A stretch of 64,000 bases of DNA from assembly GCF_900142135.1 (NCBI RefSeq), contig NZ_FQZU01000005.1, positions 124,001 to 188,000 on the forward strand, in the 5' to 3' direction. The stretch comes from Desulfatibacillum alkenivorans DSM 16219 (lineage in GTDB: Bacteria; Desulfobacterota; Desulfobacteria; Desulfobacterales; Desulfatibacillaceae). Shown here one piece after another: positions 4,673-49,965 of this stretch. Made by a program: the position numbers and the translations under genes. Position 1 is the stretch's first letter; every line of letters begins with the position of its first letter. The notes beneath the pieces are model-generated. The model made no database searches. It was not told where the DNA came from and worked only from the letters and a program-made list of their open reading frames with translations.

Positions 4673-4803
4673 GCATTTTTTTCCTGGATTTGGCATGCAC
4701 TTTTTACCTTTTTTACCCGGTTTTTCCTTCCTTTCAAAAAAGTATAATCTTTTAAATATAATAAAATCAGATGTTTAAATTCATGGCTTCCGATTTTTTC
4801 CAC
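4673..4803 (+). other. AT-rich upstream region of the flgF operon
   Basis: No gene is seen between the FlhB-like gene and flgF. The segment around 4735-4770 is very AT rich (runs of A and T), as is common for bend or IHF-type sites between an activator and a sigma-54 promoter. No specific activator site could be recognised. Confidence 0.3.
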
Positions 4804-4821
4804 TTGGCGCCCGGGTTGCAA
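4804..4821 (+). promoter_or_regulatory. Sigma-54 promoter of the flgF operon
   Basis: The sequence TTGGCGCCCGGGTTGCAA carries the -24 GG (4806-4807) and the -12 GC (4818-4819) separated by exactly ten bases, with the TTGGC and TTGCA flanks of the sigma-54 consensus. Transcription would start about 4831, giving a leader of about 33 bases before flgF. In polar flagellates the rod/hook operons are sigma-54 dependent, which fits. Confidence 0.82.
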
Positions 4822-4863
4822 TTTCACCGGTCAACCCGACTCAGGGCAAACCAAGGAGGAAGC

Positions 4864-5550
4864 ATGAACATAGGAACCATATACGCAACCAAGGGCTTTT
4901 ATAATGAGTACGAACGGTTTGAGGTTATTTCCAATAACCTGGCCAACGTCTCGACTCCTGGATTCAAGCGCGACATATTCGCCCTGGATAAAAACTCCAA
5001 TCCCTACACCAAGACCGATATGTCCGAAGGGCCTGTGCAGCACACGGGAAATGAGTTGGACTTTTCCATCCAGGGCGAGGGTTTCTTTGAAATGCAGGGC
5101 GAGAACGGGCTTCGCTACACTCGCCAGGGGCGTTTTTTGCTGAACGCGGACAAAGAAATCGTCAATGCGGCCGGCGACAAGCTCCTGAGCGACCGGGGCG
5201 ACCCCATAGTGGTGGACGGCGGCGACCTGTCCTTAGCTCCTGACGGAACCCTCATGGTGGACGGCAAGGAACTGGAAACCATCGCCGTGGTCAATTTTGA
5301 AAACCCCAAAATGCTCTCCAAAGAAGGCGCTGCTTATTACGTTTCGGAAGGCGGCGCAGGCGAGCGCCTGGAGCGTCCTGAAGGCACGATAGTGAACCAG
5401 GGCTACCTGGAGCAATCCAATGTGATTGTTCCCCAGGAAATGGTCAAGATGATGGAGTCGTTAAGAACCTACGAGACCTTTCAAAAATATATGAATACAG
5501 CCAGTGAAATGAATACCAAAGCCGTCAGCGAAGTAGGCACGCTGAGGTAA
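4864..5550 (+). CDS. flgF: Flagellar proximal rod protein FlgF
   Basis: This 228-residue axial protein builds the rod. The N-terminal rod/hook motif '[24 protein letters not shown]' (about 15-38), a central FlgE/F/G-type domain ([21 protein letters not shown]) and the C-terminal heptad-like helix ([20 protein letters not shown]) are all present. The ATG at 4864 has a perfect AAGGAGGA just before it; the open frame extends upstream to 4771 but without such a site and would overlap the promoter. Length and placement before flgG are typical. It is the first gene of the operon. Confidence 0.95.
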
Positions 5551-48395: not shown

Positions 48396-49049
48396 TTACA
48401 TCATCAGTTGGGTTTTGAGCTTTTCCGCTATTTCCCGCCCAAGCTCTTCGGCCTTTTTCCAGGTTTCGGCCTGATCCTCCACCTTGCGGAATTTTTCAGG
48501 CGTTACGGTCAAGTCGTCGCCGTGAATCATGGGCAGGGCGCTCATCATGCAGGTTTCGCCATAGCCGCACACCATGCATTCCGGGTTTCCCACAATGTTC
48601 AACTTGCCCAAGACGGTCATGCCTTCCATTTCCAAAGCCCGGGCGATCTGTTCGCAGGCCTCGCTCATGCCGGGAACTCCCCGGCCGATGCCGGTTCCCA
48701 CGGCCACGGCGAGCCTTCCCCGGTTAAACCCGTTTTGATGCCTGAACGAAAACAGGCGCTCCAAAAAGGCCTTGGCGAATCCATCCACGGCGCCGTAAGG
48801 AGAGTATCCGCCCACAACCACGGCGCCGGCCTTTTTCACTTTTTCCGCCAATGCGGGGAAATCGTCCTTCACTTTGCAAATATTGTCGTCTTTACAGCCC
48901 AGGCAGGCGACGCAAGGCTTGACATTCATCCTGCTCAGTTTAACAAACTCATACTCCAGCCCGCTGCTTTCCAAAACAGCCTTGATCAAACGGTCGGTAT
49001 TGCTGTTTTTTATGGGGCTGCCGGAAACGCCCATGATTTGGGGATTCAT
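48396..49049 (-). CDS. Iron-sulfur flavoprotein (Isf-like, NADPH-dependent FMN reductase fold)
   Basis: This 217-residue protein opens with the flavodoxin-like FMN loop 'GVSGSPIKNSNTDRL' and has the compact motif C46-x2-C49-x2-C52-x5-C58, the 4Fe-4S signature of Methanosarcina-type Isf. A second Cys group 'PECMVCGYGETC' lies near 158-169. Isf proteins pass electrons to O2, peroxide or similar acceptors. The gene sits directly downstream of a Crp/Fnr regulator gene, and the same palindrome precedes both. Electron donor and true substrate unknown. Confidence 0.85.
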   Translation of the reverse strand: MNPQIMGVSGSPIKNSNTDRLIKAVLESSGLEYEFVKLSRMNVKPCVACLGCKDDNICKVKDDFPALAEKVKKAGAVVVGGYSPYGAVDGFAKAFLERLFSFRHQNGFNRGRLAVAVGTGIGRGVPGMSEACEQIARALEMEGMTVLGKLNIVGNPECMVCGYGETCMMSALPMIHGDDLTVTPEKFRKVEDQAETWKKAEELGREIAEKLKTQLMM

Positions 49050-49116
49050 GCTTTTTCTCCTTTCCCAAAAAGGTTCTTGTTACGGTGGGAGTATAAGAGA
49101 AACAGGGGAGGGGGGC

Positions 49117-49132
49117 GGTAGCAGAGGCTACA
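49117..49132 (-). promoter_or_regulatory. Probable Crp/Fnr-family operator upstream of the Isf-like gene
   Basis: GGTAGCAGAGGCTACA has half-sites GTAGC-N4-GCTAC and shares 13 of 16 bases with the palindrome upstream of the neighbouring regulator gene. It lies about 70 bases before the Isf start. Confidence 0.6.
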
Positions 49133-49179
49133 CAGAATGCATTTTTAGCAATTAATAATTATTTTCTATTAATGATTGG

Positions 49180-49884
49180 TCAGGCGGATTCCAACAAAGG
49201 CAGAATGATCCGTTTGTCTTCGTGGATGATCTTCCCCCCGCTTTTCAGGGCTTTCATGGCCCGGGTGATGCTCACCCGGTGTGCGCCCGTCAAAAAGCTC
49301 AGGTCTTCGTGGGTCAGGGGAAACTGGATGACTATCCCTCGGGCGCTCTTGGCGCCGTGCTCCTGGGCCACGTTGGCCAATACCCGATACAACCGGTCTT
49401 CAATATTGGAGACGGCCAGGCTTCCCACCCGGCTGGTCAGCCGGGAAATCCGTTCGCTCAGGTTTTTGATGATCTGCAGGCCTACATGCGGGTGATCCAA
49501 AACCAGTTGTTCAAACTGGTCCCGGGTGAATCCGCAGGTGAAGGTGTCTTCCAGGCAATAGGCGCTTACGGGGTATTCCCCCTCTTCGGAGAACATGTTT
49601 TCGCCCACGAAGTCGCCGGCTTTCCGGATGTCCAGAGTCAGCTCAGTCCCGTCCTCCAGCACCTTGGTCAGCTTAACCCTGCCGCCTTTGATCAGGAACA
49701 TTTCGTCCGTTGGGTCTCCCTGGAGAAAAAGGGCGTCGCCTTTTTCCAGCTTTTTCCGCATGGCGTTGACGGCCAGGGCCTTGACGTCCTTGGGGTTTAA
49801 ATTTTGGAAAACCCAGAGATGCCCAATGCAAACAGGCGAAAGCTCAATGGAATCGCCGGCCATTTCGCGGCAAATACAACTCAT
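49180..49884 (-). CDS. Crp/Fnr family transcriptional regulator with N-terminal cysteines
   Basis: This 234-residue regulator has a cyclic-nucleotide-binding-fold domain (about 22-140: 'KLEKGDALFLQGDPTDEMFLIKGGRVKLTK', 'AGDFVGENMF'), a dimer helix and a Crp-type helix-turn-helix ('LTHEDLSFLTGAHRVSITRAMKALKSGG'). Cysteines at 3, 5, 19, 110 and 117 could bind an Fe-S cluster as in FNR, though the spacing differs. The recognition helix has Val where Crp has Glu181, in keeping with the unusual TGTAGC half-site. ATG 49884 follows AAAGGA; nine more codons upstream are possible. Confidence 0.88.
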   Translation of the reverse strand: MSCICREMAGDSIELSPVCIGHLWVFQNLNPKDVKALAVNAMRKKLEKGDALFLQGDPTDEMFLIKGGRVKLTKVLEDGTELTLDIRKAGDFVGENMFSEEGEYPVSAYCLEDTFTCGFTRDQFEQLVLDHPHVGLQIIKNLSERISRLTSRVGSLAVSNIEDRLYRVLANVAQEHGAKSARGIVIQFPLTHEDLSFLTGAHRVSITRAMKALKSGGKIIHEDKRIILPLLESA

Positions 49885-49949
49885 GCGTTTTGTCCTTTCA
49901 AAATAGTTCATTCCTGTAGGCGACCATACTATAATCGCGCCAGGATGGA

Positions 49950-49965
49950 TGTAGCAAATGCTACA
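49950..49965 (-). promoter_or_regulatory. Perfect palindrome upstream of the Crp/Fnr gene, probable autoregulatory operator
   Basis: TGTAGCAAATGCTACA is a perfect palindrome (7+7 around AA), 66 bases before the start of the regulator gene. Geometry (6-base half-sites, 4-base centre) is that of Crp/Fnr operators, but the sequence differs from TGTGA and TTGAT sites. Confidence 0.68.

Follow-up and report, generated by a model that had tools for sequence, protein, structure and literature searches.

A Crp/Fnr-family regulator of Desulfatibacillum alkenivorans DSM 16219 probably acts as an FNR-type iron-sulfur sensor that activates a small flavin and thiol redox regulon, and usually its own gene as well. 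The regulator gene and one of its predicted targets lie close together in the window (a stretch of 64,000 nucleotides from contig NZ_FQZU01000005.1), and their operators, promoters and proteins were compared with those of orthologous loci. In the proposed mechanism, the FNR-like regulator probably holds a [4Fe-4S] cluster on Cys3, Cys5, Cys19 and Cys117 and would bind TGTA(G/A)C-N4-G(C/T)TACA centred at -41.5. Class II activation would then take place at promoters that have a -10 element but no good -35 element, where the regulator would replace the -35 contact. Site, spacing, gene set, conserved cysteines and helix residue were read from the sequences themselves, and from these we infer DNA binding and activation, as well as a cluster and a signal. 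The features in the window are as follows.

49180..49884, minus strand: Crp/Fnr-family regulator, 234 aa, beginning MSCIC (Pfam domains, orthologues, ribosome site).
49950..49965, minus strand: predicted operator of the regulator's own promoter, 0 mismatches.
49923..49928, minus strand: predicted -10 hexamer TATGGT of the regulator promoter, 21 bp past the operator.
48396..49049, minus strand: Isf-like iron-sulfur flavoprotein, 217 aa, FMN_red fold (Pfam PF03358; 15-sequence alignment).
49117..49132, minus strand: predicted operator of the Isf-like flavoprotein gene, 1 mismatch; sites precede related Isf genes.
49090..49095, minus strand: predicted -10 hexamer TATACT of the Isf-like promoter, 21 bp past the operator.

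The regulator belongs to the Crp/Fnr superfamily, combining a cNMP-type sensor domain (cNMP_binding PF00027, 5.1e-19) with a Crp-type helix-turn-helix (HTH_Crp_2 PF13545, 2.9e-9), both above the Pfam cut-off. Its open reading frame extends upstream to 49911, where the first ATG is found, but the codon at 49884 is preferred as the start because GAAAGGA lies immediately 5' of it and the orthologous regulators begin with MxCxC (alignment of 22 rows). Starting at the ATG of 49911 would also place the initiation codon only about 5 nt after the predicted transcription start. Subfamily models give scores below their cut-offs, both for FNR (NCBIfam NF008365, 53.6 bits against 228) and for NtcA (TIGR03697, 60.7 bits against 244.95). 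Scanning genome contigs identified 21 orthologue loci with 68-79% identity in their best segments. Metagenome bins make up many of the source records, whose titles name Desulfosarcina, Desulfobacula, Desulfobacterium, Desulfospira, Desulfamplus or other deltaproteobacteria.

Both palindromes described in the sequence-only reading are present, TGTAGCAAATGCTACA at 49950-49965 and GGTAGCAGAGGCTACA at 49117-49132, and they share 13 of 16 bases; in the first, two perfect 7-bp arms flank a central AA. Allowing up to 3 mismatches to TGTAGC-N4-GCTACA, the window holds 15 sites against 12.06 expected, which is chance level, and with at most 1 mismatch it holds the two reported operators only. At this same stringency the 6.47-Mb genome contains three places only. 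The third, on contig C26, precedes a flavodoxin gene that is not linked to the other two, and TATGGT follows it at the same distance as at the regulator site. A relaxed pattern (TGTA-N8-TACA with TAnnnT at 21 bp) also gives three places in the genome, two of them at the regulator and the flavodoxin and the third a weak site; reversed as a control, the pattern gives one place per strand. The flavoprotein site is missed because its last base in gene direction is changed. Palindrome plus loose -10 was rejected as a diagnostic across the phylum (10 of 395 genomes, with 26 for the reversed control), since the control gave more genomes than the pattern itself.

Absence of the palindromes upstream of orthologues in close relatives had been named as a refutation of the reading; all 21 orthologue loci carry a site. 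Together these loci span 211 kb and contain 29 sites that deviate from TGTARC-N4-GYTACA by no more than one base, where ten shuffles gave 0.4 on average. By BLAST, the gene behind the site is the regulator, an Isf-like gene or a flavodoxin in 27 cases; these include one locus where isf is broken off early (L037) and one where only a remnant of isf was seen by eye (L041). Behind the other two sites (L038 and L052) no gene was recognised, and their strand was taken as that of the regulator. In eight loci (L036, L037, L040, L041, L046, L050, L053, L054) the regulator itself directly follows a site; in another eight (L039, L043, L044, L047, L048, L049, L051, L055) a site precedes an isf or flavodoxin gene that lies upstream of the regulator and is read from the same strand; and in five (L035, L038, L042, L045, L052) sites are present solely downstream of the regulator. 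From this placement, autoregulation is likely in 16 of the 21 loci and is not seen in five. The suggestion of a self-regulated module with a shared operator thus gains support from the complete set of loci, with eight direct cases and eight through the upstream gene. At L041 (positions 4802-5004) the isf gene behind the operator appears by eye to have shrunk to its first and last codons, which may have left the regulator directly under the isf promoter.

The position of the operator relative to the -10 element is nearly constant. Of 31 sites, 26 have TAnnnT exactly 21 bp beyond the operator, whereas any other offset between 10 and 34 gives at most 6 of 31; this set omits a site at L055 (7246), before a further Isf-like gene and without TAnnnT at +21, whose inclusion makes the count 26 of 32. 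In 41 distinct hand-picked sites TA is present at -12/-11 in every case and TAnnnT in 35, but the 31-site count is the fairer one because the larger set was chosen for sites with a fitting gene and leaves out L169 and L176. Matches to a -35 element are weak in these 41 sites, with a mean of 2.73 of 6 at a spacer of 17 and a maximum of 4 (11 of 41 sites), and at spacers of 15, 16, 18 and 19 no site reaches 4 of 6. Transcription is predicted to start near 49916 for the regulator and near 49083 for the Isf-like gene, and relative to such starts the operator spans -49 to -34 with its centre at -41.5. The fixed 21-bp spacing, this centre and the weak -35 together point to a class II activator, so that site position predicts activation. 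An operator at -49 to -34 could also block RNA polymerase, and the 11 sites with a 4-of-6 -35 match at spacer 17 would suit a repressor covering the promoters; this reading is very unlikely, as the constant spacing to the -10 and the lack of any -35 above 4 of 6 fit class II activation better.

The promoter rule becomes looser with distance. Among 34 further regulator loci, many of them from the same genomes, four (L109, L114, L129, L131) have no site in the stretch examined. In the group L124-L137, TAnnnT at +21, read on the regulator's strand, is present in only 4 of the 12 loci with a site, and the genes behind the sites vary. The DNA logic predicted from these sequences is therefore well supported near the lineage of the window but weaker in distant relatives.

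The preferred reading also draws on how the operator may be recognised. Alignment with E. coli FNR and CRP places Val204 where FNR has Glu209 and CRP its Glu, in agreement with the replacement noticed earlier, so that the regulator shows Arg203-Val204 against Val208-Glu209 in FNR and Arg-Glu in CRP; the only two other paralogues of the same genome aligned there have P-E and R-E. The R-V-x3-R arrangement is that of the NtcA helix of cyanobacteria (GSTRVTVTRLLGD; PDB chains, GSTRVTVTRLL). Excerpts of published work give the NtcA site as GTA-N8-TAC centred near -41.5 (PMC3898017) and indicate that CRP positions 180 and 181 track half-site bases, with HcpR2, mostly Pro at 181, recognising GTAAC-N4-GTTAC (PMC1274295). 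The proposal that the operator forms a class of its own was therefore abandoned, as the operator satisfies the NtcA motif and nearly the HcpR2 motif as given in those excerpts; since, in addition, the valine is the NtcA residue, it is better grouped with known factors that lack this glutamate. The regulator and its operator combine GTA-N8-TAC at -41.5 with an R-V helix, both as in NtcA, although NtcA senses 2-oxoglutarate and the regulator falls far below the NtcA model cut-off. A Glu-to-Val change in the recognition helix is thus seen to go with a TGTA half-site. Searches of open-access literature for the motif or for a named regulator of this kind listed no paper that names it.

The resemblance between GTAAC-N4-GTTAC and the operator (PMC1274295, in extract) could also suggest an HcpR/HcpR2-type nitrosative-stress factor. 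This is extremely unlikely: in place of the Pro (or Ser or Gln) expected at the position of CRP Glu181, which is mostly Pro in HcpR2, the regulator has Val204, and HcpR proteins are described in the same extract as lacking FNR-type cysteines (PMC1274295). HcpR2 has hcp targets, and no hcp-like cluster appeared among the recurrent neighbours read by eye.

FNR, as known from E. coli and A. fischeri, is a [4Fe-4S] oxygen sensor and class II activator, and the regulator shares both its fold family and its pattern of three N-terminal cysteines plus one in the beta-roll (here Cys3, Cys5, Cys19 and Cys117). The cysteines listed earlier at 3, 5, 19, 110 and 117 are correct provided that translation starts at 49884. 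In the orthologue alignment Cys3, Cys5 and Cys19 are kept in all 22 rows and Cys117 in the 21 rows that have a letter there; a second alignment of 35 rows, which repeats many genomes of the first and adds relatives of 48-64% identity, retains Cys3 in 35, Cys5 in 33, Cys19 in 33 and Cys117 in 35. Cys110, although present in the regulator, stands outside this firmly conserved set (29 of 35 rows). MAFFT and profile alignments with E. coli K-12 FNR agree in pairing Cys117 with FNR Cys122; the pairing of Cys19 with FNR Cys29 comes from MAFFT. In contrast to FNR, the N-terminal spacing is CxC-x13-C, with the CxC near residue 3, rather than C-x2-C-x5-C. Further differences from FNR are the Arg-Val of the helix, the operator (TGTARC rather than TTGAT) and the regulon, which is local and of few genes. 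The N-terminal cysteines are absent in the two own-genome paralogues with the aligned helix. With 18 rows as input, AlphaFold2 gave a regulator model with a mean pLDDT of 52, too poor for judging whether the four cysteines meet.

These alignments make an iron-sulfur nature of the regulator plausible, and a cluster bound through the FNR ligand scheme with altered N-terminal spacing is likely. The cysteines might instead serve without a cluster, by thiol oxidation or disulfide sensing (as is thought for CprK) or by binding another metal. The spacing unlike that of FNR would agree with this, as would the orthologues L135 and L136, which lack Cys5 and Cys19 and yet keep the operator before their own gene with TTAATA at +21; these two represent natural variants without two of the four putative cluster ligands. 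We consider sensing of this type unlikely, given that Cys117 sits where FNR has a ligand and is retained along with the three N-terminal cysteines, while the nearby Cys110 drifts.

Isf is an iron-sulfur flavoprotein of Methanosarcina and Archaeoglobus, and its family is defined by a compact C-x2-C-x2-C-x4-7-C motif in an FMN_red fold. The Isf-like gene lies 130 bp downstream of the regulator on the same minus strand, and its product has the C-x2-C-x2-C-x5-C motif, as had been noticed, at Cys46, 49, 52 and 58. Motif and fold assign it to this family (15 of 15 aligned sequences, and PF03358). Unlike Isf, the Isf-like protein has an additional invariant motif, C-x2-C-x5-C at Cys158, 161 and 167, which is perhaps a second metal site, and all seven cysteines (46, 49, 52, 58, 158, 161, 167) are invariant in the 15 aligned Isf-like sequences. 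Among solved structures, the closest relative in sequence is Cd1 (7d38). To our knowledge the role of Isf-like proteins is unsettled.

The association between operator and regulator was compared across 30 Isf loci from the order, out of 42 matches listed. The operator (at most one mismatch) precedes the Isf gene in 9 of 14 loci whose genome has the regulator against 1 of 16 without it, with a Fisher p of 0.0011 that is only a guide, because the genomes are related and the comparison is confounded by an Isf identity of 47-100% with the regulator versus 45-74% without. Five of the 14 Isf loci in regulator genomes have no operator. In one assembly (G613, 91% complete) a perfect operator stands before an Isf gene, and the regulator was not found there.

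The predicted regulon is wider than the regulator and isf pair first proposed: a flavodoxin joins it, as does an AhpD-like gene in some of the genomes. Of 39 genome entries searched with an AhpD-like query, 7 gave a match, two of which (G617 and G025) are the same place of one genome, and the operator (at most one mismatch) is found at 4 of the 7 loci; in G010, the genome of L036, 50 bp separate the AhpD-like gene from isf, which precedes it on the same strand. The protein matches Pfam CMD and, above the cut-off, an NCBIfam peroxidase-related enzyme. The gene was not found in the D. alkenivorans genome with either a fragment or the full-protein query, the latter being the one that matched the seven other entries. 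Each of the seven matches contains one in-frame TGA, with a CxY-UGA motif seen in four loci (L168, L170, L171, L172). AhpD/CMD-like genes with in-frame UGA (CAYU or CDYU where seen) occur at L152, L160, L162 and L168-L174, several of them under the same operator, and are read as selenoproteins from sequence. CMD-like and AhpD-like CxxU selenoproteins appear in a list in an excerpt of PMC13188914. The hairpins after the UGA (7 bp in L160, 6 bp in L162) are not stronger than those of shuffles.

Fifteen distal sites in regulator genomes were examined (L152-L166), seven of which combine TAnnnT at +21 with a fitting gene: AhpD-like in L152, L160 and L162, flavodoxin in L154, a truncated flavodoxin in L158, Isf-like in L155 and GrdB-like in L157. 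The GrdB-like gene (L157, from 1392) has an in-frame UGA and a perfect operator with TATAGT at 21 bp. An Isf-like gene also follows the site in L156, but with TAAGCA instead of TAnnnT. Seven other sites (L153, L159, L161, L163-L166) have neither TAnnnT nor a fitting gene and were discarded as chance or repeats. In genome G026, which contributes L161 and L163-L166, five perfect TGTAGC-N4-GCTACA palindromes are set in similar, repeat-like flanks and have no -10 at 21 bp.

With these genes, the targets would be an Isf-like flavoprotein, a flavodoxin and usually the regulator itself, joined in some relatives by the AhpD-like selenoprotein. Regulator activity would depend on the cluster state, set by oxygen, peroxide, nitric oxide or iron supply, and in this manner anaerobes could adjust flavin- and selenium-based electron carriers together with peroxide handling. 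As a first guess, the signal is cluster damage by oxygen, peroxide or nitric oxide in the first place, and iron or cluster shortage in the second. Were iron or Fe-S supply the signal, the apo form would activate flavodoxin and flavoprotein when clusters are scarce and the DNA logic would be unchanged. Known FNR activates as the holo form, which counts against an apo-activator. Flavodoxin of Desulfovibrio is predicted to be FUR-regulated and perhaps replaces ferredoxin under iron restriction (excerpt of PMC545781), in line with such a signal. It is nonetheless doubtful, as the Isf-like protein with its seven invariant cysteines probably needs clusters itself and the AhpD-like genes with a site point to peroxide or thiol chemistry.

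Activation by an FNR-type cluster sensor would tie Isf-like proteins to flavodoxin and an AhpD-like selenoprotein. For a redox switch of sulfate reducers it specifies factor, site, -10, start site and direction, a complete prediction at promoter level that can be tested. The observation behind the sequence-only reading is confirmed and its interpretation partly supported. Tentatively, and with somewhat less confidence than would make it probable, the regulator may represent a separate branch of Fe-S-sensing Crp/Fnr activators (CxC-x13-C...C with NtcA-like DNA reading), so far in Desulfobacterota, that drives a dedicated flavin-plus-selenium regulon; if true, this branch would show sulfate reducers sensing oxidant or cluster damage without FNR proper. 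The regulator is found at E up to 1e-40 in 35 of 389 genomes of the order, and within its own family (9 genomes) a close regulator occurs in the D. alkenivorans DSM 16219 genome only, a patchy spread that suggests transfer or repeated loss. Two kinds of gene recur near the regulator: DsrE-like genes, just under the Pfam cut-off (L044, L055, L131-L134), and DUF1638 genes (L044, L052, L131, L133).
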